From Cloacibacillus porcorum (GTDB lineage Bacteria > Synergistota > Synergistia > Synergistales > Synergistaceae), in the NCBI RefSeq assembly GCF_001701045.1, contig NZ_CP016757.1:2444219-2508218 (forward strand): 64,000 nt of DNA. Reading direction: 5' to 3'. The notes beneath the pieces were generated by a model. The model was not told the DNA's origin, did no database searches, and saw only the letters and a program-made list of their open reading frames with translations. The position numbers and the translations under genes are program-made. Below, piece after piece: positions 1,420 through 48,432 of the stretch (its first letter is position 1; the number at the start of each line of letters is the position of its first letter).

Positions 1420-1956
1420 TTATTCGTTCAGCGCCTTTTTTATCTTTTTACGGATTGTTTTAAGGCGCGCCGCGACCGCCTGCTGGCTGACGCCCAGGGT
1501 ACGCGCGATCTCCCGCTGGCTGTAACCGCCTATGAGCGCCTGGGTGATGTCGAACTCATCGGGGGAAAGGGCGCGCATGAGCATCTCGCGCAGTTCGATT
1601 TCACGGTAGTTTTGTTCTTCCGCGCCAAGTATCTCTTCCAGCTCTTCGAGCGGCAGCCCTTTGCCGACGGCGTGCGCGCGGCGGAGACGCGCCGCGGCGT
1701 CCCTTATGTATCCGGGCAGGTGGTTTTTGAGGAAGCACGCGAGCCATTGGGGGTCGGGGCATTTGGGGACGAGGATGAGCAGCGCGAGACAGCCCTCCTG
1801 CACGAGGTCGTCGTATTCCGCGCCGCGTCCCTGGTAGCGTTTCGCGACGGCCTTTACAAGCGGCTTGTAGGCACGGACGGTATCAGGAACGGAAACGGGC
1901 TCCGGTCGTGGTACGGGTAGGGGAGACAAGTGAACGTTCTGGTTCTCTTTCTGCAT
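1420..1956 (-). CDS. Small sigma-70-like factor
   Basis: 178 residues. A region 2-like segment (AEYDDLVQEGCLALL, about residues 45-60) is followed by a C-terminal region 4 helix-turn-helix (QREIARTLGVSQQAVAARL, about 145-163) and a basic tail. It resembles small, phage-type or extracytoplasmic sigma factors, though region 2 is short, so it could instead be a sigma-like DNA-binding regulator. I chose the ATG at 1956 because AGGAGG lies nine bases upstream; the longer frame from 1992 has no such site. It stands alone upstream of the surface-protein gene at 1-1330, in the same orientation with about 90 bases between, so co-transcription or regulation of that gene is possible. No anti-sigma gene is visible next to it. 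Confidence 0.75.
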   Translation of the reverse strand: MQKENQNVHLSPLPVPRPEPVSVPDTVRAYKPLVKAVAKRYQGRGAEYDDLVQEGCLALLILVPKCPDPQWLACFLKNHLPGYIRDAAARLRRAHAVGKGLPLEELEEILGAEEQNYREIELREMLMRALSPDEFDITQALIGGYSQREIARTLGVSQQAVAARLKTIRKKIKKALNE

Positions 1957-2117
1957 TGTCGCAGTCCTCCTTATTGGGTTTTGTAAAGTCAAGGTGTGAC
2001 AACTTTAACAGTGGGAGGAGACGAGGAAGGCGACAACGCCGCGCAGAGGCCGGGGGGTTGGGGGGTGCTGGTTGCTTGGTTGTGTGATAAGGAGGAGAAA
2101 TCTGTAAGGTAAAAGAT

Positions 2118-2458
2118 AAATTACGGTTTAGCAAAGATTTTGGCGCCCTCTCTGAGGCGGCCAGGGAGCCAAATCAGAGTTCTTCTGATTTGTGCGATTC
2201 GGCTGGTAGTTACATCAGAGCTGGCTCGGCGATGTTTTTCGCCGAGACTGAGGGAGAGTTGACCTTCGGTTCTCCCGCGGCTTTCGCCGCGGGCTCTGTA
2301 TGGCGCGCTTTCCGCGCCATACAGAGCAACACTCCTTCCGTCTCGCCGCAAAAGCGGCGGCGATCCACCTTCCTCAGAGAGGAAGGCTAAAAGGGCAAAG
2401 TCAAAAGCTAAATCGCAATTTACAGTTTTCCTCATCGAAGATAAATCGCAATTTAGCT
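2118..2458. repeat. Dispersed palindromic repeat, copy A (MITE-like)
   Basis: A non-coding element whose core (2118-2421) is bounded by near-identical inverted ends (AAATTACGGTTTAGC at left, GCTAAATCGCAATTT at right). Inside are nested hairpins: an outer stem with CCCTCTCTGAGG against CCTCAGAGAGG, a CCCGCGG/CCGCGGG stem, and a 15-base-pair stem at 2293-2307 against 2313-2327. A second copy lies at 39945-40209. A 37-base tail (2422-2458) here follows the right end; in copy B its reverse complement precedes the left end. No transposase is encoded, so a mobilised non-autonomous element or a conserved structured RNA are both possible. Confidence 0.75.
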
Positions 2459-2954
2459 TTCAGCCTGTCGAGTCAAAGTGGAACCGTTGTTTGCTTTTGT
2501 TCTTGTCTTGTCGCACCGGCCCCCGAGCCGGTGTCCAGCGGCTTGCCTTGTTCTACTCCTAACAAAATAAAACCCCAAGCCCCTGGATGCCGGGTCAAGC
2601 CCGGCATGACAAACAAAAATCATTTTTCTCGCAAAATATCCCGCGCGTTTTCAGCGTCAGAAGGTTATCGACCGCTATATAGCAGACTTTTATTGTTTTA
2701 AGACCGCCTTGGTCGTAGAAATAGACGGCGGTCAGCACTATTGCGGCGGCCGCCCGGATTTTTACGCGGGTTGCCGATAGCTGAACTTAGCTCCGTTTCT
2801 ATCAGAGGCGTCAGCCGCCTGTTTTTGCGGCTGACTGAATGAGTGCTGCGCGGCGAAAGCTGGGAATAAAATTGAAGCCTCCCTCTTCGATGCCGTTAAA
2901 AGGAAGCTTCCGCAAAGTTATTTTCTATAATTTAGGATTTCGGGCCGTCTGCGA
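2459..2954. other. Gene-free stretch with short palindromes
   Basis: I see no credible gene. It holds a REP-like pair: a hairpin with arms CACCGGC and GCCGGTG at 2514-2532, and ATGCCGGG/CCCGGCAT at 2587-2607 within a CTGGATGCC...GGCATGAC repeat type common in bacterial genomes. Further on are a GACCGCC/GGCGGTC hairpin (about 2702-2734) and a perfect GTCAGCCGC/GCGGCTGAC stem near 2811-2836. The latter could act as a terminator region between the convergent or spaced minus-strand genes. Confidence 0.5.
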
Positions 2955-4121
2955 TTATTGTTTTTTTTCCGCGCTGCTGATGTTCTTCAGCACAAAGGCG
3001 GCCCACAGCTCAAAGGCGTCTTTGAAGTTCCAGGGGTCTTTGCCGGTGAGGGCGCGGATTTTTTTGAGGCGGTACTGAAGGCTGTTTCTGTGCATCGCGA
3101 GACGCTCGGCCACTTCGCCGCTCGCGAAGGGGGATTCGCACCAGCCGAGGAAGGTGTCGCGCATCTCCTCGTAATCGTTGCGTCCCTCGAGCCCCGCGAG
3201 GGTGCGGTCGGCGAATTCTTCCCGTTTGCCTACCGGGAGCAGGTCCAGCAGGGCCTCGCTGGTGAGGCTGCGCGCGGAGATAACGCCGGAAAGTTTGAGC
3301 TGGCCCGCGAGGCGCATCGCGTCGCGCGCGGAACGCAGGGAGATGGCGAGCCCGTTCAGGTCGTTCGCGGGAAAGCCTACGGCGATGTCGGCGGTAATGC
3401 CTTTGTCTTCCAGGCTCTCGATAAAACCGTGGGCAAGGCTCTCAATGTTCTGAGTGATGTCGTCGTTGGTCCCCGGACGGTTCGGCGTGACGAAGATCGT
3501 GACGCGCCGGTTCCGCTGCGGACAGATGACATTGCGCGGATGGGAGAAGGCGGAGCGCAGCTCGCGCACCATGATCTGATAGGCGTTCTCGCTCGATTCG
3601 TCTTTCCACTTTTTCATCTCGACGACGACGGAGGCTTTGCAGCGCGTGAGGGTTACGCCAAGCTCTTTGCCCTGAAGGGTGATGAGTTCGCCCATGCCCT
3701 GGGAGGCGTCGTAGGAGGCGACGTTTTCAACAAGGTCGCGCAGCGCGCGTTCGCGCATAAGGTTTGACTCAAGGAAGGCCTGTTCGCGCAGCATGATTTC
3801 CGCCTGTTTCTGCACGAGGAGCCCAAAACGCTCGACCTCATCGGGCATACCGGTTATTGAGACGGAGCCGATGACTTTGTCGAAGAATTGTATGGGCAGT
3901 GTATAACCGGGATAGACGCCGGGCATTTTTTTCGCCTCGTCGCTGTAGGTGACGCATGGTTTGTTTTCCTGCATCACCTTAATGGAGGGTTCGTGGAAGG
4001 TCCCCACTCTTTTCTTTACATTACAGCCGATAATGATGCCGTTTTCATCGGTAACGAGAACGCCGCGTCCGATTACCTCGCTTGTACTCTCTGCGATATT
4101 CTGCGCCATTTTTTTAAACAT
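2955..4121 (-). CDS. CdaR/PucR-family transcriptional regulator, divergent from grdE
   Basis: 388 residues. The N-terminal 130 or so residues match the sugar-diacid recognition domain (AESTSEVIGRGVLVTDENG, and later GYTLPIQFFDKVIGSVSITG). A middle GGDEF-like linker follows, and the C-terminus is a PucR-type helix-turn-helix (SGEVAERLAMHRNSLQYRL, about residues 340-360). The start at 4121 is the ATG in front of the conserved domain, with GGGAGTGG upstream; an in-frame extension to 4349 runs into the grdE leader and has no domain content. The gene is transcribed away from grdE across a roughly 196-base intergenic region rich in A and T, the usual arrangement for a local regulator. I infer that it senses a small carboxylate or amino acid and controls the glycine reductase genes; the ligand is unknown. 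Confidence 0.85.
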   Translation of the reverse strand: MFKKMAQNIAESTSEVIGRGVLVTDENGIIIGCNVKKRVGTFHEPSIKVMQENKPCVTYSDEAKKMPGVYPGYTLPIQFFDKVIGSVSITGMPDEVERFGLLVQKQAEIMLREQAFLESNLMRERALRDLVENVASYDASQGMGELITLQGKELGVTLTRCKASVVVEMKKWKDESSENAYQIMVRELRSAFSHPRNVICPQRNRRVTIFVTPNRPGTNDDITQNIESLAHGFIESLEDKGITADIAVGFPANDLNGLAISLRSARDAMRLAGQLKLSGVISARSLTSEALLDLLPVGKREEFADRTLAGLEGRNDYEEMRDTFLGWCESPFASGEVAERLAMHRNSLQYRLKKIRALTGKDPWNFKDAFELWAAFVLKNISSAEKKQ

Positions 4122-5620: not shown

Positions 5621-6934
5621 ATGACCTTAAAAGTTGTTCATTATATTAACCAGTTCTACGCCGGTATCGGCGGAGAAGAGAAGGCCGACCACCAGCCCGA
5701 GATACGCGAGGGTATTGTCGGTCCCGGAATGGGCCTTAACGCCGCCTTCGGCGGCGAGGCTGAGATAGTCGCCACCGTCATCTGCGGCGACGGCTACTAT
5801 GGAGAGCACACGGAAGAGGCCCGCGCCAAGTGCCTGGAGATGGTGGCGGCCAAGAAGCCCGACCTCTTCATCGCCGGCCCCGCCTTCAACGCCGGACGCT
5901 ACGGATTCGCCTGCGGCGATATCGCGGCCACGGTAGCCGCCGAGCTCGGAATCCCCACGGTGACTTCAATGTACCCCGAGAACCCCGGAGTGGAGCTCTA
6001 TTCCAAGAAGACTTACATCGTCCCCTGCGCCGACTCGGCGCGCGGCATGGGCCAGGCCCTTCCCGTAATGGCTAAGCTCGGCCTCAAGCTCGCGAAGGGC
6101 GAACCGATGGGCCCCGCGAAGGTCGAGGGTTATATCCACCGCGGCATGCGCAAGTCTTTCTTCCATGAGAAGAGCGGCGCTGAGCGCGCGGTAGAGATGC
6201 TCCTCAAGAAGCTCCGCGGCGAAGAGTTCCAGACGGAATATGAGATGCCGACCTTCAAGAAGATCCCTCCGGCAGCGCCGATCAAGGATCTGAAGCACGC
6301 GAAGATCGCGCTCGTCACCTCCGGCGGTATCGTCCCGAAGGGCAACCCCGACCGTATCCGCGTCTCCTCGGCGGAGAGCTTCGGCGAGTATGATATTTCC
6401 AGCCTCTTCGATATGACGCCCGATAACTACGAGTCAATCCACGGCGGCTATGACCGTCAGTGGGCAAACCTCGACCCCGATGTGGTCGTTCCCATCGACG
6501 TTATGCGCGAACTTGAAAAAGAGGGCGTATTCGGCAAACTCCACGATAAGTTCTACACCACGACCGGTACCGGTACGGCCGTCGCCTTCGGCGAGAAGTT
6601 TGGACAGGAGATCGGCGCGAAGCTGAAAGAGGCCAGCGTTGACGGCGTGATCCTCACCTCCACCTGAGGAACTTGTACTCGGTGCGGTGCATCGATGACA
6701 AGAGAGATCGAAAACGCGGCAGGCATCCCCGTCGTCCAGATAGCGACGATCGTTCCTATCATGCTCACAGTCGGAACGAACAGAATAGTCCCCGGCGTGG
6801 CGATCCCCCATCCCGTCGGAAACCCCGAACTCGGCCCCGAGGTCGACAAGGCGGCACGCAGAGAGCTGCTCATGCGCGCATTCAAGGCTATGACTACGCC
6901 TATCGAAGAACAGACAATCTTCGAAAAGAACTAG
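5621..6934 (+). CDS. grdB: Glycine reductase component B gamma subunit, selenoprotein (in-frame UGA)
   Basis: 437 residues with selenocysteine at residue 349, encoded by TGA at 6665-6667. The frame continues without interruption past TGA as UGTCTRCGASM, the UxxCxxC redox motif of GrdB. Without Sec decoding the gene would be called as a 348-residue protein plus a spurious 79-residue one. Upstream, the motifs IAGPAFNAGRYGFACG and SGGIVPKGNPDR are typical of the family. The Sec residue attacks the substrate-bound Schiff base during reductive C-N cleavage. It follows grdE and precedes a hairpin at 6948-6972. A close paralogue is at 27346-28656. Expression needs SelA/B/C/D, none of which is in this window. 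Confidence 0.95.
6665..6705 (+). promoter_or_regulatory. Putative SECIS region of grdB
   Basis: The UGA is followed immediately by a GC-rich stretch (GAACTTGTACTCGGTGCGGT and on) that can fold into the short bacterial SECIS hairpin expected within about 40 bases of the Sec codon. The same stretch after the second selenoprotein B TGA (27613) is nearly identical. The fold was judged by eye only. Confidence 0.55.
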
Positions 6935-6947
6935 TTTTAAACTATCC

Positions 6948-6972
6948 GAGGGCGGCTTTAAACGCCGCCCTC
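6948..6972 (+). terminator. Hairpin after grdB
   Basis: A strong stem GAGGGCGGC / GCCGCCCTC with a short TTTAAA-type loop lies 13 bases after grdB. The downstream sequence has only a weak T run, so it may be a leaky terminator or an RNA-stabilising end that lowers expression of grdX relative to grdEB. Confidence 0.55.
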
Positions 6973-7058
6973 TTCCACCAAAATATTAATCCGAACAAAA
7001 AAATTACCTATTTCAGTAATTCTCTTATCATTTTTATAAAAATGCACAAAAACAGCCT

Positions 7059-7087
7059 TTGCATTTTGCTGTAAAATATCATATTAT
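7059..7087 (+). promoter_or_regulatory. Putative sigma-70 promoter ahead of grdX
   Basis: TTGCAT at 7059-7064 and TATTAT at 7082-7087 are 17 bases apart, about 30 bases upstream of the grdX start and after the grdB hairpin. This suggests that grdX-trxA-grdA can be transcribed apart from grdEB. Confidence 0.4.
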
Positions 7088-7115
7088 ACAAAGCGGCACG
7101 AGCTGAGGAGACCGG

Positions 7116-7523
7116 GTGATAGAGATGACGGCAAAAGAGTTACGTATCGTTACAAACAACAGCTGGATAGAGACAGGCCCCGCGGTACCGCATGAGATAG
7201 TGTTCGTCGAGGGGACGCCGATGGAGGTCCTCGATAAGACGGAAGAGCTGCTTCAGCAGGGTTGGAGGCTCGTATCCGCCCCACTGCCTCCGAATGTGCC
7301 GATAATGCGCGGTCCCTATCGGTCTTTGGTGATAGAGAAAAATGACCGCCAGTATGACAGGGACGGGCTGATAGCGCTCGGCAAGGCGAGAGACCGTTAC
7401 CGGATGGAACGGGAGAACCACAATTTGCCGGAGCCCGGCGAGGACTTCGGCGTGATCGACCGCCAGATGCTGCAGCGGACGCTGCGCGACGCTATGATTA
7501 TTGAGGCTGAAAATAGAAATTAA
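7116..7523 (+). CDS. grdX: GrdX-family protein
   Basis: 135 residues. The sequence (TNNSWIE near the start, ELLQQGWRLVSAPLPPNV, YRSLVI) fits the GrdX family, small soluble proteins encoded in glycine reductase operons of Clostridia and Synergistota. The biochemical role is unknown in the family. The GTG start at 7116 has GAGGAG five bases upstream; an ATG nine bases later is a less well spaced alternative. It lies between grdB and trxA, the normal neighbourhood for grdX. No membrane segment or metal-binding motif is evident. Confidence 0.8.
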   Translation: MIEMTAKELRIVTNNSWIETGPAVPHEIVFVEGTPMEVLDKTEELLQQGWRLVSAPLPPNVPIMRGPYRSLVIEKNDRQYDRDGLIALGKARDRYRMERENHNLPEPGEDFGVIDRQMLQRTLRDAMIIEAENRN

Positions 7524-7622
7524 ATATCGTTTCAAGGTCGACTTTCTGACTGACGGATGATATGATAAGAAATAGATATTAAAAGCTGTGACTTTTAAAA
7601 TATAAACAGGAGGCAAACTACA

Positions 7623-7946
7623 ATGATTGCACTTACAAAAGAAAACTGCGACGCCGAAGTACGCGAAGAGAAGTCAATACCCGTAGTAGTGGATTTCTGG
7701 GGACCCCAGTGCGTTCCCTGCATGGGCCTTATGCCCCACTATCACGAGATGGAGAAGGAATTCGAGGGTAAGGTGAAGTTCACCTCCGTCGACTGCTCGA
7801 CCAACAAGAGAGTGGCGATGGGCTTCCGCGTAATGGGCCTTCCCACCTTCCTCTTCTGGAAGGACGGAGTAGAGGTAAAGCGCCTCTCAAAGGAAGAGTG
7901 CACGGCCGAGTCAATCAGAGCGGAGATCGAAAACCTTATTAAGTAA
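7623..7946 (+). CDS. trxA: Thioredoxin of the glycine reductase system
   Basis: 107 residues with a full thioredoxin fold and active site WGPQCVPC (Cys30 and Cys33). The CVPC motif replaces the usual CGPC; variant dipeptides are common in grd-linked thioredoxins and shift the redox potential. The conserved cis-proline is in GLPTFLFW. In this system thioredoxin regenerates selenoprotein A after each turnover. AGGAGG precedes the ATG. The usual neighbour, thioredoxin reductase trxB, is absent here, so reducing power must come from a reductase encoded elsewhere. Confidence 0.92.
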   Translation: MIALTKENCDAEVREEKSIPVVVDFWGPQCVPCMGLMPHYHEMEKEFEGKVKFTSVDCSTNKRVAMGFRVMGLPTFLFWKDGVEVKRLSKEECTAESIRAEIENLIK

Positions 7947-8007
7947 GGCGATAGTTGGACGGCAGCGTCCAATTTAGCATAAAACACAAATAGGAGGTAT
8001 CTTGTCC

Positions 8008-8484
8008 ATGGGCAAATTAAGTGGTAAGAAACTTCTCCTGCTTGGCGAAAGAGACGGCGTACCTGGGCCCGCGATGGAAGCGTGCCTTAAGGATTCTGGC
8101 GCAGAGATAGTATTCTCAGCGACAGAATGCTTTGTCTGAACCGCGGCAGGAGCAATGGACCTGCAGAACCAGCAGCGTATTAAAGACGCCGCTGAGAAGT
8201 TTGGAGCCGAGAACTGTGTAGTAGTATTAGGTTCTTCAGACGCGGAAGGCGCAGAAATCTACGCCGAAACCGTCACGAACGGCGATCCGACCTTCGCAGG
8301 CCCGCTTGCTGGAGTCTCGTTGGGACTCCCCGTGTATCACATCTTTGATGAAGCTATTCGTTCAGAGTGCGATCCCGCGCAGTGGGAAGAGCAGATTTCC
8401 ATGATGGAAATGGTCCTCGATCCCGAGGCACTCGCAGCCGCCGTAAAAGGCATGCGTGACCAGTACAGCAAGGCTGCTCTGTAA
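8008..8484 (+). CDS. grdA: Glycine reductase component A, selenoprotein (in-frame UGA)
   Basis: 158 residues, the normal length for GrdA, with selenocysteine at residue 44 encoded by TGA 8137-8139 in the diagnostic motif CFVU. The frame is open from ATG 8008 (AGGAGG ten bases upstream; an in-frame TTG six bases earlier is too close to it) through the TGA to 8484. GrdA carries the carboxymethyl-selenoether between component B and the acetyl-phosphate-forming component C, and it is reduced by thioredoxin. It is shared by glycine, sarcosine and betaine reductases, so this copy can serve both B components in this window. A strong terminator follows at once; no grdC or grdD is present. Confidence 0.95.
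8137..8177 (+). promoter_or_regulatory. Putative SECIS region of grdA
   Basis: The bases after TGA 8137 (AACCGCGGCAGGAGCAATGG) are compact and can pair into a short apical stem, as needed for SelB-dependent decoding. This is inferred from position and the obligate Sec in GrdA, not from a calculated fold. Confidence 0.45.
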
Positions 8485-42354: not shown

Positions 42355-42402
42355 TTTACACCGCTTATGCACTTTGATATAATCTATTCAATCGGTTGCA
42401 CA
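42355..42402 (+). promoter_or_regulatory. Promoter and LacI-type operator of the peptide transporter regulator
   Basis: TTTACA (42355-42360), 17-base spacer and TATAAT (42378-42383) form a near-consensus sigma-70 promoter. Immediately downstream CAATCGGTTG (42389-42398) sits in a GalR/LacI-like palindrome (consensus TGCAACCGGTTGCA). It overlaps the expected transcription start, so the adjacent regulator probably represses itself and perhaps the transporter. Confidence 0.65.
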
Positions 42403-42414
42403 AGAGGTGTTCCC

Positions 42415-43002
42415 ATGAAAGTTACCATGCAGGATGTCGCGAATCAGGCGGGTGTGGACAAGGCCACCGTGAGCCGCGTACTCCGCGGCGACCACCGGAT
42501 ATCGGAAAAGACAAAGATAAAGGTGATGGAGAGCGTACGCGCCCTCAATTATAAACTGGACCGCAACGCAAGGAACCTATCCACAAACACCAGCGGCCTT
42601 ATCGGGGTGGTGATGCGCGACCTCAACAGGCCGTGGCTCGGAGCCTTTCTCGCCGGCATTGACCGTGCCTTCGCGAACTCGGAATATGAAATACTGCTAA
42701 AGTGCACAGAGGGCAACGCGATGCGCGCCCGGCGCGAGCTAAGTACCCTTGACGGACGGCATGCGGAGGGCTTAATCTGGTGCGATGCGGAGAATTTTCC
42801 GTCTGAGCTGCGTACACCGGCGGTCTGCCTCGGCTTTACGGCGCCCGGAGCTTACTCAGTGACGATGGAGAACGCGGAGGACGCGCCCACCTTTGAGACC
42901 GGCGTGCTCGTCGGCAGGATGATGCTCAAGATAGTCGCCGGCAAGCCCCTTCCCGGCAGGGAGATAAGGGTCATGCGTCCATTGGAACAGACAGCGGATT
43001 AA
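42415..43002 (+). CDS. Shortened LacI-family regulator
   Basis: 195 residues against about 330 in the family. The helix-turn-helix and hinge are complete (MKVTMQDVANQAGVDKATVSRVLRG, then NARNLS). The effector domain starts normally (GLIGVVMRDLNRPWLGAFLAGI), runs to VCLGFTAPGAY and then jumps to the family's final segment (ETGVLVGRMMLKIVAGKPLPG). About 130 internal residues, including most of the second lobe, are missing. It may bind DNA without a classic ligand site. Start at ATG 42415, with AGAGGTG upstream, close to its own operator. Precedes the five-gene peptide transporter by 47 bases. Confidence 0.8.
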   Translation: MKVTMQDVANQAGVDKATVSRVLRGDHRISEKTKIKVMESVRALNYKLDRNARNLSTNTSGLIGVVMRDLNRPWLGAFLAGIDRAFANSEYEILLKCTEGNAMRARRELSTLDGRHAEGLIWCDAENFPSELRTPAVCLGFTAPGAYSVTMENAEDAPTFETGVLVGRMMLKIVAGKPLPGREIRVMRPLEQTAD

Positions 43003-43049: not shown

Positions 43050-44738
43050 GTGGCAACGACATTGAACGGAATTAAAAAAATTTTATGCTCTTTAGCTCTA
43101 TTGGCGTTATTGGCCGCTCCGAGGGCCGCAAGCGCCGATGAGAGGATAGATATAGACAAGATACGCGGGCCGAAGATAGAGGAGCTTGCGATGTTGATCA
43201 TCTCCAACCCCGACGCGCAGATAATGGCCGCCGAGGCCGGGGAGCTCGACATCGTGAGCGATATCGCCCGCCCCTCGGACATCGACCGTCTCAGCGCCAA
43301 TAAAAATTTGCAAATGTCCCTCGCGCGCGGCATGCACGCCTTCTTTTTGCTGCTCAACAACCGCGCCGCGCCCTGGGATGATAAGGATGTGCGCCGCGCC
43401 GCCGCGATGGCGATCGACCGCGGCAGCATCGTCCGCATGATATTCTCCGGTTACTGCGAACCGATAAATTCCTGGCTTCCCCCCGTATCGCCGTGGGCGC
43501 TGGCCAACAGCACGGAGGATATTTACAATCCCGCCGCGGCAAAGGAGCTGCTGAAGAAAAAAGGGTACAGCTGGGATCTCGCGGGGATGCTTGTCGCCCC
43601 CGACGGTAAAAGGCTGCCCACAATGAAGCTGCTGACGCCGCTCGCGCGCGTCGCGCCGACGACGGCGGAGCTTGCGGAGCTGATCGCCGATTCGCTGAAG
43701 GCGGTGGGCTTCCCAGCCGAGGTGGACCCGATAGATTTTTCCACGATGATTGCGCGGCTCGACCGCAAGGATTATTCTCTGGCGGTGCTGGCCTGGAGCA
43801 TGGGGCGCAATCCCGATTCTCTCTATTCCTTCTATCACAGCGATATGGATGTCGAGGGCGGCTACAATATGACCGGCATCAGGGACGCGAGGCTCGACAA
43901 GGCCCTCGCAGAGCTGCGCTACGCGCCGGACCGCGCCGCCGCCGAGAGAGCCTCGGATGAGGCGCAGCGCCTGCTGCTGGAGCTGATGCCCTCGGTGCCG
44001 ATCTACAGCCGCATCTCGGTGGCGGCGATCTCCGGCAAATGGAAGAATATCTTCACCACGGACAAGATGACGGCGGACAATATGTGGACGCTGCTCACGG
44101 CGGAGCCGAAGGACGGCAAAATGCGCCCCCTGACGATGCTGCTGCCGGAGGAGCCGCGCAACCTCAACCCCTTCACCGCCTCCTCGGCCTATTCGTGGCA
44201 GGTGCTCGGCATGATATACGAGTCGATGCTCTCCACGGATCCATACACGCTTGAGAATATGCCGGGACTCGCCGCCTCGTGGGATATCCGCACGGCGGGA
44301 GAGGGCAAATCGCGCCACACGGAGCTTATCTTCAGGATCAGGCGCGGCCTTCGCTGGAACGACGGCAGCCCGCTGACGGCGCGCGATATAAAGGCCAGCA
44401 TCGACTTCATCCATAAGAATAAGATACCGCGCTTCTTTGACTCGGTAAAAAACATCAGAAGCGTCGAGACGCCGGACGACTACACGCTGCGCGTCGTAAT
44501 GGATGGCGTCAGCTACTGGTATCTTGACAACGTCGCGGGCATTCCGGTGATCCCGCAAAAGGTCGTCGCCAATATCAAAGACTGGCAGAGCTGGGACCCC
44601 CTCAGCACGAAAAACGCCGGCGGCCCGCGCGGCCTTGTGGGAAGCGGCCCGTTCATGCTCAAAAGTTATAAGCCGGGAGAATATGTGATGATGAAGAGGA
44701 ATCCCCATTACCGGCTGCTGGGAGGCGGGGCAAGATGA
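43050..44738 (+). CDS. Circularly permuted peptide-type solute-binding protein (SBP family 5)
   Basis: 562 residues. A signal peptide (LCSLALLALLAAPRAASA) is followed by the segment that is normally C-terminal: residues about 39-352 contain IISNPDAQIMAAEAGELDIV, FFLLLNNRAAPWDDKDVRRAAAMAIDR, YNPAAAKELLKKKGYS and ELMPSVPIYSR. Then residues about 358-556 contain the segment that is normally N-terminal: LTMLLPEEPRNLNPFTASSA, LENMPGLAASWDI, FRIRRGLRWNDGSPLTARDI and GSGPFMLKSYKPGEYVMMKR, ending NPHYRLLG. In ordinary DppA/OppA proteins NPHYRLLG would lead straight into the GPKIEEL found here at residue 40, so the chain is cut at that point and the old ends are joined by EPKDGK. Periplasmic peptide capture is inferred. 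The start is GTG 43050 (AGGGAGG two bases away) or TTG 43062. Its stop overlaps the first permease start. Confidence 0.88.
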   Translation: MATTLNGIKKILCSLALLALLAAPRAASADERIDIDKIRGPKIEELAMLIISNPDAQIMAAEAGELDIVSDIARPSDIDRLSANKNLQMSLARGMHAFFLLLNNRAAPWDDKDVRRAAAMAIDRGSIVRMIFSGYCEPINSWLPPVSPWALANSTEDIYNPAAAKELLKKKGYSWDLAGMLVAPDGKRLPTMKLLTPLARVAPTTAELAELIADSLKAVGFPAEVDPIDFSTMIARLDRKDYSLAVLAWSMGRNPDSLYSFYHSDMDVEGGYNMTGIRDARLDKALAELRYAPDRAAAERASDEAQRLLLELMPSVPIYSRISVAAISGKWKNIFTTDKMTADNMWTLLTAEPKDGKMRPLTMLLPEEPRNLNPFTASSAYSWQVLGMIYESMLSTDPYTLENMPGLAASWDIRTAGEGKSRHTELIFRIRRGLRWNDGSPLTARDIKASIDFIHKNKIPRFFDSVKNIRSVETPDDYTLRVVMDGVSYWYLDNVAGIPVIPQKVVANIKDWQSWDPLSTKNAGGPRGLVGSGPFMLKSYKPGEYVMMKRNPHYRLLGGGAR

Positions 44739-45709
44739 GCGGGAGATGGTTCCTGAAACGCCTCCTCTCTTCCCTCGTCGTCCTCGCGGCGGTGCTGGTG
44801 CTCAACTTCCTGCTCTTCCGCATGATGCCGGGCGACGCGGTGAGCACGATCATCGATCCCTCCTTCTCGCCGGAGGCCAAGGAGAACCTGCGCGCCATCT
44901 ACGGCCTGGACCGCCCGCTGTGGGAGCAGTTCGTCATCTATATCAGGCAGATGCTCACCTTCAGCTTCGGTCTCTCCTTCCTGAGCCGCAAACCGGTCTG
45001 GGACGAGCTCGTCTCGCGCCTGCCCGTGACGCTGACCCTCACGGTAAGCTCGATGGCGCTCTCCTCCGCGCTCGGCGTCTGGCTGGGCATCAAAGCGGCG
45101 CTGAACCGCGGGCGGCTGGCGGAGAAGATCGTGCTGCGCGCGAGCGCCGTCACCTCATCCTTTCCAGGCTTCTTCGTCCAGCTCGTGCTGCTGATGTTAT
45201 TCGCGCGCGCTCTGCCGATATTCCCGCTGCGCGGCACCCTCTCCGTTCCGCCGCCGACGGGCGCGCTTGGCATATTTCTCGACTACGGCTGGCACCTGGC
45301 GCTGCCCGTATTGTCGCTCTCACTGATGGGCTTCGGCGGCTGGGCCCTCTACGTGCGCAACCTCATGGTGCGCGCGCTCAATGAGGACTTCGCGCTGATG
45401 GCGCGCGCCCGCGGCCTTTCGCGCGGACGCGTCGTCTGGCACGCCTTCCGCACGATACTGCCGCCGATCCTGACGATCCTCCTGATGTCCGTCCCCGGGC
45501 TCGTCTCCGGCGCGGTGATAACGGAGTCGGTCTTCTCGCTGCACGGCGTGGGCACCTTCCTGCTGGAGGCGATCTCCGGCCACGACTACCCCAGCGCGGG
45601 AGCATCCTTCTATCTGCTCGCGCTGATCACCGTATTCTGCAACCTGCTCGCCGACATCACCTACGGGCTTGTCGACCCGCGCGTGCGCATCGAGGGCAAG
45701 GTACAATGA
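44735..45709 (+). CDS. dppB: Peptide ABC transporter permease, DppB family
   Basis: 324 residues, six membrane helices. Starts with RWFLKRLLSSLVVLAAVLVLNFLLFRMMPGD and carries the DppB N-terminal TM and EAA loop near ALMARARGLSRGRVVWHAFR, the site where the ATPase docks. Its ATG overlaps the binding-protein stop by four bases. It pairs with the DppC-type permease, encoded with a further four-base overlap. Confidence 0.92.
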   Translation: MSGRWFLKRLLSSLVVLAAVLVLNFLLFRMMPGDAVSTIIDPSFSPEAKENLRAIYGLDRPLWEQFVIYIRQMLTFSFGLSFLSRKPVWDELVSRLPVTLTLTVSSMALSSALGVWLGIKAALNRGRLAEKIVLRASAVTSSFPGFFVQLVLLMLFARALPIFPLRGTLSVPPPTGALGIFLDYGWHLALPVLSLSLMGFGGWALYVRNLMVRALNEDFALMARARGLSRGRVVWHAFRTILPPILTILLMSVPGLVSGAVITESVFSLHGVGTFLLEAISGHDYPSAGASFYLLALITVFCNLLADITYGLVDPRVRIEGKVQ

Positions 45710-46881
45710 GAACCATTCTTACACGCAAAAGCGTGATCGCCTTCATCGCCATCTCCCTTATCGGTGCCTTCGCGCCCCTTATGATGAGCCAGTCGCCCTA
45801 CGCGATAACCGGCGCTCCGTTCGCGCGTCCTCTCTGGTGGCGCGGCGGCACGCTGTCCGCGACGCAAAATTTCACGATAAACGACGGCCGTCTCGATCTT
45901 GAATGGGATAAAAACCCGCCGGCGATATTCTCGCTCTCAGGCCGGATCACCGCGAAGCCGGAATCCAACGTGCGCGTGATCTGGCGTACGCGTGATAAAG
46001 ACTATCTGCTCGATGATCTCAGCGGTTCAGAGACATACTGGATAAACCAGGACGGCCGCGACATGATATTCAAGCAGGCGCTGGGCCTGCCCCTCATCAG
46101 CAGAAGCGTTGACTATCTCTTTCCGGCACACGGCACGTACAGCCTCATCGTCGAGGGCGCGGAGAGCGTGGAGCTTAAACTGTCGCTGCCCGGCGAACGA
46201 CAGGGGCTGCTCGGCACCGACCAGCGCGGACGCGACGTCTTTACGATGCTCATCTACGGCATTCGTACCTCTTTAATAATCGGCATCAGCGCGACGATCA
46301 TCGCGAGCATGCTGGGCATGGCCTTCGGCCTCACCGCCGGTTACATCGGCGGCTGGTGCGACACGCTCATTATGCGTGTGGTGGACATCCTCCTTTCGAT
46401 ACCGACGCTGCCGATACTGATGGTGCTCGCTGGTATCTGGGGCAAGGGGCTCTGGCAGCTCGTGCTGATACTCTCCATCTTCTCCTGGATGGGCACGGCG
46501 CGCTCCGTGCGCGCGCTCGTCCTCACCGTGCGAGAAAGCCCCTGGGTGGAGTCGCTGCGCGCCCTCGGCGCGAAACGCGGCTACATCCTCTGGCGGCACC
46601 TCGTGCCGGAGACCGCGCCGATACTGCTGGCGAACATCGCGCTCGGCGTGCCGGGAGCGATACTCGCGGAGGCGGGGCTCGCCTTCCTCGGCCTCTCCGA
46701 CCCGCGTCTGATCTCCTGGGGCCGTATGCTGCACGAGGCGCACTCCTTCGGAGCCTTCACGGAGGGCGCGTGGTGGCTGCTGCTGCCGCCGGGATTCGGC
46801 ATCGTGGCGATCTGCCTGATATTTATGGATATGGGAAAATTCCTGGAAGAAAAGATAGATCCGAGGCTCAGCGGAAAATGA
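45706..46881 (+). CDS. dppC: Peptide ABC transporter permease, DppC family, with added extracytoplasmic domain
   Basis: 391 residues. After the first helix (VIAFIAISLIGAFAPLMM) there are about 135 residues (30-166) outside the membrane, where typical DppC has about 40. This domain is beta-rich (ATQNFTINDGRLDLEWDK, AIFSLSGRI, TYSLIVEGAESVELKLSLPG). Then LGTDQRGRDVFTMLIYGIRTS resumes the normal permease, with EAA loop ESLRALGAKRGYILWRHLVPE. The insert is placed to touch the binding protein, which is permuted in this system. Overlaps its neighbours by four bases on each side. Confidence 0.9.
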   Translation: MRTILTRKSVIAFIAISLIGAFAPLMMSQSPYAITGAPFARPLWWRGGTLSATQNFTINDGRLDLEWDKNPPAIFSLSGRITAKPESNVRVIWRTRDKDYLLDDLSGSETYWINQDGRDMIFKQALGLPLISRSVDYLFPAHGTYSLIVEGAESVELKLSLPGERQGLLGTDQRGRDVFTMLIYGIRTSLIIGISATIIASMLGMAFGLTAGYIGGWCDTLIMRVVDILLSIPTLPILMVLAGIWGKGLWQLVLILSIFSWMGTARSVRALVLTVRESPWVESLRALGAKRGYILWRHLVPETAPILLANIALGVPGAILAEAGLAFLGLSDPRLISWGRMLHEAHSFGAFTEGAWWLLLPPGFGIVAICLIFMDMGKFLEEKIDPRLSGK

Positions 46882-47645
46882 TACTTGAGATAAAAGACCT
46901 TAACGTCACATACAACAGCAAATCGGACAACCCCAACGCCGCGGTGCGCGGCGTATCCTTCGCGCTGGAAGAAAACTCCTTCAGCGGCCTCATCGGCGAA
47001 TCCGGCAGCGGCAAGAGCACGGTGATAATGACGCTGCTCGGACTGCTGCCGAGAGACAGCGCGGCGAGCGGCGAGATTTTATATAAGGGGCGCAGCATCC
47101 TGGGCATTCCCGAAGACAAAATGGCCTCCCTGCGCCAGCGTGAGATCGCCCTCATTCCGCAGGGGGCGCTCAACTCATTCACGCCGGTAATGACGATCGG
47201 CCGCCACCTGCGCGAGGTGCTGGAGCTGCACCTCGGCCTCAAAGGCGAAGCCGCCGAAAGACGTATCACTGAGCTGCTCGCGGAGGTCGAGCTTCCCCCC
47301 GAGATCGCCGCGCGTTATCCCCACGAACTTTCCGGCGGGCAGAAACAGCGCGCCGCGATCGCCATCGCCCTCTCCTGCGAACCCAAGCTCATCCTCGCCG
47401 ACGAGCCGACGACGGCGCTCGACGTCATCACACAGGCGGCGATCCTCCGACTCCTTGAACGGCTGCGCCGCGAAAAGAACCTCACGATACTGCTCGTAAC
47501 CCACGATCTGCCGCTGGCCGCCTCGGTATGCGGCGAACTCTTTGTCATGAAGGACGGGAAGCTGATCGAAAGCGGCACGCCGCGGCAGCTGATCGATTCG
47601 CCGCGCGAAGCGCACACCAGGGCGCTCATCGCCGCGATGCTGTAG
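46878..47645 (+). CDS. dppD: Peptide ABC transporter ATPase, DppD family
   Basis: 255 residues. Walker A GESGSGKST, Q-loop IPQGALNSF, signature LSGGQKQRAAIA and Walker B LILADEPTTALD are all intact. It lacks the C-terminal Fe-S cysteine tail (oligopeptide-binding extension) found on many DppD/OppD proteins, so the chain is short. Start ATG 46878 overlaps the permease stop. It works with the DppF-type ATPase next in line as a heterodimer. Confidence 0.92.
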   Translation: MILEIKDLNVTYNSKSDNPNAAVRGVSFALEENSFSGLIGESGSGKSTVIMTLLGLLPRDSAASGEILYKGRSILGIPEDKMASLRQREIALIPQGALNSFTPVMTIGRHLREVLELHLGLKGEAAERRITELLAEVELPPEIAARYPHELSGGQKQRAAIAIALSCEPKLILADEPTTALDVITQAAILRLLERLRREKNLTILLVTHDLPLAASVCGELFVMKDGKLIESGTPRQLIDSPREAHTRALIAAML

Positions 47646-47658
47646 GAGCGTGATTACG

Positions 47659-48432
47659 ATGGAAAATATTGTAGAGATAAAAAACCTCACCATAGAATTC
47701 AACTCCCGCAGCGCCAAAAGCCACCGCGCCCTCGACGGCCTGGACCTCGCTCTCGAACGCGGCGGCACGCTCTCGATCGTCGGCGAGTCTGGCAGCGGCA
47801 AGAGCACCCTGCTGCGCGCGGTGATGGCGCTCATTCCCCCCACCGCCGGCAGCGTGGCGCTCTTCGGCAAAGATACGGCAAAGATCACAACGGCGGAGCT
47901 CAACAGCCTGCGCCGCCGCTGCGGCTACGTGCCGCAGGACCCCTACGGCGCGATACCGCCGGGGCTGTCGGTCATCGACGCGGTGATGGAGCCGGAGATA
48001 ATCGCGGGGGTAAAAAGAACGAAAGAGGAACGGCTCGAACGCGCGAAAAAACTGCTCGCCGAGGTCGGCCTCACCGGAGAGAGGATACTCGCCTCGCGCG
48101 CCGTCGGCCTCTCCGGCGGACAGCGCCAGCGCGTCGAACTTGCGCGCGCCCTGATGCTCGATCCGGAGCTGCTGCTCTGCGACGAACCGACCTCGATGCA
48201 GGACGCCTCGACGCGCGGCGAGATCATCGAAGTGCTGCGCCGCCGCACCGGCGGCGGCATGTCGATGCTCTTCGTCACCCACGACCTGCTCCTCGCAGCC
48301 CACGCGGCGCAAAAGATAGTCGTCCTCAAAGAGGGCAGACTATGCGAAAGCGGCGATTCAAAAGAGGTGCTAGCCGCGCCGCGGCACCCGTACACAAAGG
48401 CGCTGCTGGACGCGCTGCCGAGAATCACCTAA
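47659..48432 (+). CDS. dppF: Peptide ABC transporter ATPase, DppF family
   Basis: 257 residues. Walker A GESGSGKSTLL, signature LSGGQRQRVELA, Walker B LLLCDEPTSMQD, with His in VTHDLLLA. The Walker B region reads SMQDAST in place of the usual SALDVST. Start at ATG 47659 because AGGAG lies ten bases upstream; a GTG at 47650 is too near to it. Its last bases overlap the end of the convergent Fic gene, so no terminator separates them. Confidence 0.9.
   Translation: MENIVEIKNLTIEFNSRSAKSHRALDGLDLALERGGTLSIVGESGSGKSTLLRAVMALIPPTAGSVALFGKDTAKITTAELNSLRRRCGYVPQDPYGAIPPGLSVIDAVMEPEIIAGVKRTKEERLERAKKLLAEVGLTGERILASRAVGLSGGQRQRVELARALMLDPELLLCDEPTSMQDASTRGEIIEVLRRRTGGGMSMLFVTHDLLLAAHAAQKIVVLKEGRLCESGDSKEVLAAPRHPYTKALLDALPRIT

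Follow-up and report, generated by a model that had tools for sequence, protein, structure and literature searches.

The gene at positions 43050-44738 of the stretch of Cloacibacillus porcorum DNA analyzed here (the window, 64,000 nucleotides) raises the question of whether a receptor of SBP family 5 can be built from a chain whose two parts have changed places. An earlier note, made from the letters of the window, had proposed exactly this, with the old ends joined by a short linker and the gene set in an overlapping operon. The order of the profile matches, a rotation test, the prediction of a single fold and the conservation of the arrangement support the proposal that this SBP family 5 protein is naturally circularly permuted. 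We consider it very probable that the old ends have been joined, that new ends lie after the NPxYR strand, that the protein has its own importer and that the arrangement has a single origin. The features on which the argument draws are the following.

42367-43002, + strand: shortened LacI-type regulator just upstream of the SBP gene (LacI HTH; same place at 12 Synergistaceae loci)
43050-44738, + strand: circularly permuted SBP family 5 protein, 562 aa (profile, PDB-sequence and AlphaFold2 evidence)
43050-43136, + strand: new signal peptide, residues ~1-29, lacking a lipobox cysteine (from sequence; predicted helix 4-21)
43164-44105, + strand: segment B, residues 39-352 (PF00496 145-362; model residues 40-355 align to DppA 208-507 of 507)
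44106-44120, + strand: linker PKDGK, residues 353-357, joining the old C- and N-termini (boundaries by profile, PDB and homologues; high predicted confidence)
44121-44717, + strand: segment A, residues 358-556 (PF00496 3-142; PDB sequence matches to residues ~10-195 of canonical chains)
44735-45709, + strand: DppB-type permease, dedicated partner (Pfam BPD_transp_1)
45706-46881, + strand: DppC-type permease with an extra beta-rich segment at residues ~47-165
46878-47645, + strand: ABC ATPase, DppD-like (Pfam ABC_tran; operon conservation)
47659-48432, + strand: ABC ATPase, DppF-like (Pfam ABC_tran and oligo_HPY; operon conservation)

The reading frame of the SBP gene is intact from a GTG start codon at 43050 (an alternative TTG lies at 43062) to a stop codon that overlaps, as ATGA, with the start of the following gene at 44735, which bears out its placement in an overlapping operon. 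Within this single frame, PF00496 (SBP_bac_5) matches the protein twice, first with profile positions 145-362 (139.6 bits) and then with positions 3-142 (93.9 bits), and its score of 231.1 bits passes the curated cut-off of 32.4. Because the parts follow each other in this order, and not with the N-terminal part ahead of the C-terminal part as in canonical chains, the protein is a permuted variant rather than an ordinary member of SBP family 5. The sole other SBP5 gene of the genome has the normal order (PF00496 2-367). Segment B corresponds to the C-terminal ~60% of a canonical SBP5 and reaches its natural C-terminus; segment A corresponds to the N-terminal ~190 residues. Comparison with PDB sequences gives the same picture, in that residues ~40-330 resemble the later portion of canonical chains and residues ~360-554 the earlier portion. 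Rotating the sequence in silico merges the partial matches and lifts the best score from 79.6 bits, in two pieces, to 94.9 bits in a single one. The segment boundaries that the earlier note had given, together with the break between NPHYR and GPKIEEL, agree with these comparisons.

Structure prediction with AlphaFold2, based on 46 aligned sequences, yields one confident fold (mean pLDDT 92.9, pTM 0.87) in which the few residues joining the old ends are ordered. In sequential structure comparison, residues ~40-355 of the model align to canonical SBP5 structures from residue ~188-230 through to the C-terminus with Z 26-29 (Z 27.8 for DppA and 29.2 for AppA), and essentially nothing of segment A is aligned, which is as expected of a permutation under sequential aligners. 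The identity of segment A as the N-terminal part of an SBP5 is supported instead by its Pfam score and its PDB sequence matches. As a prediction, then, the protein would have the two-lobed SBP5 fold, with segment B recognized by structure and segment A by sequence. The new ends fall in the loop that follows the NPxY strand, at about residue 207 of mature DppA, a position that we take from published OppA/DppA domain boundaries to belong to lobe 1. Lobe 1, and not a hinge-region loop as previously proposed, is thus the most likely site of the new ends, and since the cut falls there the hinge crossings should stay unchanged.

The permuted SBP heads its operon, and nearly all loci with enough flanking sequence have the gene order SBP-DppB-DppC-DppD-DppF. 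The protein is encoded with DppB/DppC permeases and DppD/DppF ATPases, as expected of SBP family 5, and most likely serves a type I ABC importer as its receptor. Even in the Bacillota-affiliated group, the DppB proteins beside permuted SBPs match at 45-54%, whereas the next best DppB reaches at most 38%. The shortened LacI-type regulator possibly controls the operon. It is ~195-211 aa long and is 54-92% conserved ahead of the permuted SBP at the 12 Synergistaceae loci; it consists of an HTH and the start of the N-terminal subdomain followed by an apparent LacI C-terminal return segment, and by eye the C-terminal subdomain (~130 aa) seems to be missing.

The extra DppC segment follows the first membrane helix and precedes the permease core, is predicted to be beta-rich and has conserved columns common to the Synergistota and Bacillota-affiliated groups. 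Beside permuted SBPs, at least 150 residues precede the core in 99 of the 99 loci counted (some of which are one genome fetched twice), whereas beside canonical SBPs, nearest relatives included, the figure is mostly 50-85 residues; some of the very long N-terminal values are over-extended frames, and likewise the 534-residue frame at L264, a locus with a canonical SBP. The N-terminal part of DppC, which includes the extra segment, had no meaningful match in Pfam, and among the matches listed by Foldseek there was no solved permease chain with such a segment, only weak similarities to small beta-domains. A known parallel is the P2 region of MalF in the maltose transporter, which contacts MalE (PMC3150292). 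It too is a beta-rich periplasmic insert in a permease subunit, but it belongs to another permease family, has another insertion point and shows no detected homology; SBP contact is known for MalF-P2 and supposed for the DppC segment, making the two functional analogues at most. By this analogy, we hypothesize that the extra DppC segment may aid docking of the SBP.

Tentatively, and with doubts that outweigh our confidence, we propose that the permuted receptor and the DppC segment could represent a novel type I importer subtype with a docking geometry held by the permease, fixed once and now present in two phyla. If this is true, the moved chain ends of the receptor permitted a different docking geometry. 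We assign about an even chance to a permutation that is real yet selectively neutral, with a DppC segment kept by common descent and no cooperation between the two. Such neutrality would fit a cut in lobe 1 that leaves the hinge crossings, as judged from canonical domain boundaries, unchanged. Moreover, unrelated segments occupy the same place in other DppC-like proteins beside canonical SBPs (L263, L265); the position thus tolerates insertions, and the link between segment and permutation may reflect common descent only. Neutrality is harder to reconcile with the presence of the segment beside permuted SBPs throughout the examined loci and its absence from the nearest canonical operons. At L265:4030-5907 (- strand), the DppC-like permease adjoining a canonical SBP has an insertion of RCC1 repeats, comprising five RCC1_2 stretches, that separates its first membrane helix from the core.

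The structural model also bears on whether two chains might complete each other in a domain-swapped dimer. The new ends could permit such an exchange of segments, but the single-chain model is confident throughout and its linker is ordered, and we regard a swapped dimer as improbable. Even less credible is a chance fusion of two incomplete SBP halves that is decaying or has been neofunctionalized and does not act as one receptor. Either half alone is indeed an incomplete SBP5; jointly, however, the halves amount to exactly one complete SBP5, the model of the single chain is confident and the gene has been retained with its own importer genes. Purifying selection acts on both halves and the join, with dN/dS relative to a congener of ~0.08 for the mature protein as a whole and 0.09 at the join, values that are noisy over short stretches and for which some dS estimates fail. 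A decaying fusion was rejected on the fold model, the conservation and the overall dN/dS. That a faulty assembly join or a chimeric MAG at ~44106 mimics a permutation can, as the earlier note held, be dismissed as next to impossible; nothing was found in its favor, the genome is a single contig of 3,585,187 bases, and the same order and junctions recur in more than 100 independent assemblies from two phyla.

A genuine permuted receptor also fits the distribution of the gene. The search for Synergistota homologues that had been suggested with the original proposal recovered colinear permuted homologues in 108 of 188 genomes, at 43-88% identity. A GTDB-wide scan with two motif patterns, which will miss divergent members, added Bacillota-affiliated MAGs with the same order. 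In one Bacillota-affiliated phylum, the permuted SBP is found in 26 of 398 sampled genomes, a sample that includes genomes previously known to carry it, and within one class in 11 of 12 genomes. The permuted SBP is not one odd gene but an ancient, phylum-wide family found in more than 100 species. Beyond these groups, 120 genomes from the phylum of an Elusimicrobia locus contained no match at E<=1e-40 (a set that lacked a positive control), and 112 genomes from the phylum of a Myxococcota locus contained one contig-edge fragment only, which is probably a mis-binned contig. The viral contigs searched encode no relative, and a plasmid search gave distant matches only, at ~26% identity among the matches listed.

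In a tree of rotated and canonical sequences, all 71 permuted sequences form one group (SH-aLRT 100), which divides into a Synergistota half and a Bacillota-affiliated half; the tree omits L207 and L213 ('perm' calls), which are loci with in-frame stops and short pieces. Given that all permuted sequences group together, the permutation most likely arose once, and a single origin, with subsequent descent or transfer, is the best fit. The canonical branches are long and the exact sister of the permuted clade is unsure. The closest canonical SBPs include L157/L158 and L193/L196, and the closest other DppB genes include those adjoining L157, L158 and L193, an independent hint at the parental type. 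Our searches found no close canonical-order sister, the nearest canonical SBPs being ~25-30% identical, and no duplication intermediate. Duplication followed by fusion and trimming is the textbook mechanism of circular permutation, and we infer that a tandem duplication, an in-frame fusion and the loss of the outer parts probably produced the permutation, which was then fixed.

Several loci depart from the common arrangement. Some Bacillota-affiliated MAGs have tandem pairs of permuted SBP genes before one importer (L126:3916-5616 and 6449-8152, + strand; L129:1-1542 and 1906-3669, + strand). Genome G342 encodes two further permuted SBPs, one of them divergent (L257:6310-8091 and L258:5563-7221, both - strand), with no DppB/DppC neighbors in the stretch read; these are possible orphan receptors. 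At L037:38-1714 (+ strand), an in-frame TAG at about query residue 384 interrupts a permuted homologue, which points to either a broken copy or a sequence error.

What the receptor binds is a separate matter. A near-invariant arginine of the permuted family, R253, aligns with the site of the ligand-binding aspartate of DppA, which is known to bind the amino group of the peptide. The aspartate is also absent from some canonical members, and R253 is therefore compatible with peptide ligands. None of the NCBIfam equivalog cut-offs is reached, the best score being 112.5 against 393 for NikA, with 64.1 against 1005 for DppA. Outside the operon, no gene neighbor is widely conserved, and hence the neighborhood offers no clue to the ligand. 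On account of R253, the equivalog scores and the neighbors, the gene should not be called peptide-binding, as it had been before.

Taken as a mechanism, a short ordered linker would connect the old N- and C-termini, the chain would have been opened anew in the loop that follows the NPxYR strand, and a new signal peptide would precede the new N-terminus. The chain is predicted to fold as the usual two-lobed receptor, which would capture a small solute in its cleft, close around it and pass it on to the dedicated type I ABC importer (DppBCDF type).

Canonical members of SBP family 5 (AppA 1xoc, DppA 1dpp, OppA, NikA) are homologous to the permuted SBP over both of its halves and share its predicted fold and DppBCDF operon context; they differ in that the permuted chain is rotated, is ~20% identical to them and has an arginine at the DppA aspartate site. 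The matches of the protein go to SBP family 5 and not to Cluster B (MglB-like) sequences or folds. Cluster B does include a precedent, TpMglB-2 (Tp0684) of Treponema pallidum, described as 'Type Ic / Cluster Bc', in which permutation adds a hinge crossing (PMC4990184). Like the present protein it is a naturally permuted SBP of an ABC importer kept in a bacterial set, but it is a sugar-binding lipoprotein cut elsewhere and with that added crossing. Furthermore, its permuted part is only 13% identical to MglB; the two halves of the present protein, by contrast, are plainly homologous to SBP5. A literature search, with subscription papers mostly outside its coverage, returned no permuted family-5 SBP, and the main text of a preprint on permutations across AlphaFold clusters makes no mention of SBPs (PMC12667903). 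As far as this search reaches, the permuted SBP is undescribed in, and new to, SBP family 5; the earlier note likewise named no described case.

Natural circular permutation of large two-lobed transport receptors is rare, and the one case that the literature search found is from another class. Standard profiles overlook it, reporting two partial matches under the ordinary family name. The natural permutation site may be of use for biosensors built on SBP family 5. For the family itself, the finding is a natural experiment that can show whether receptor closure and docking depend on where the chain begins and ends and, above all, whether the DppC segment and the permutation act together.
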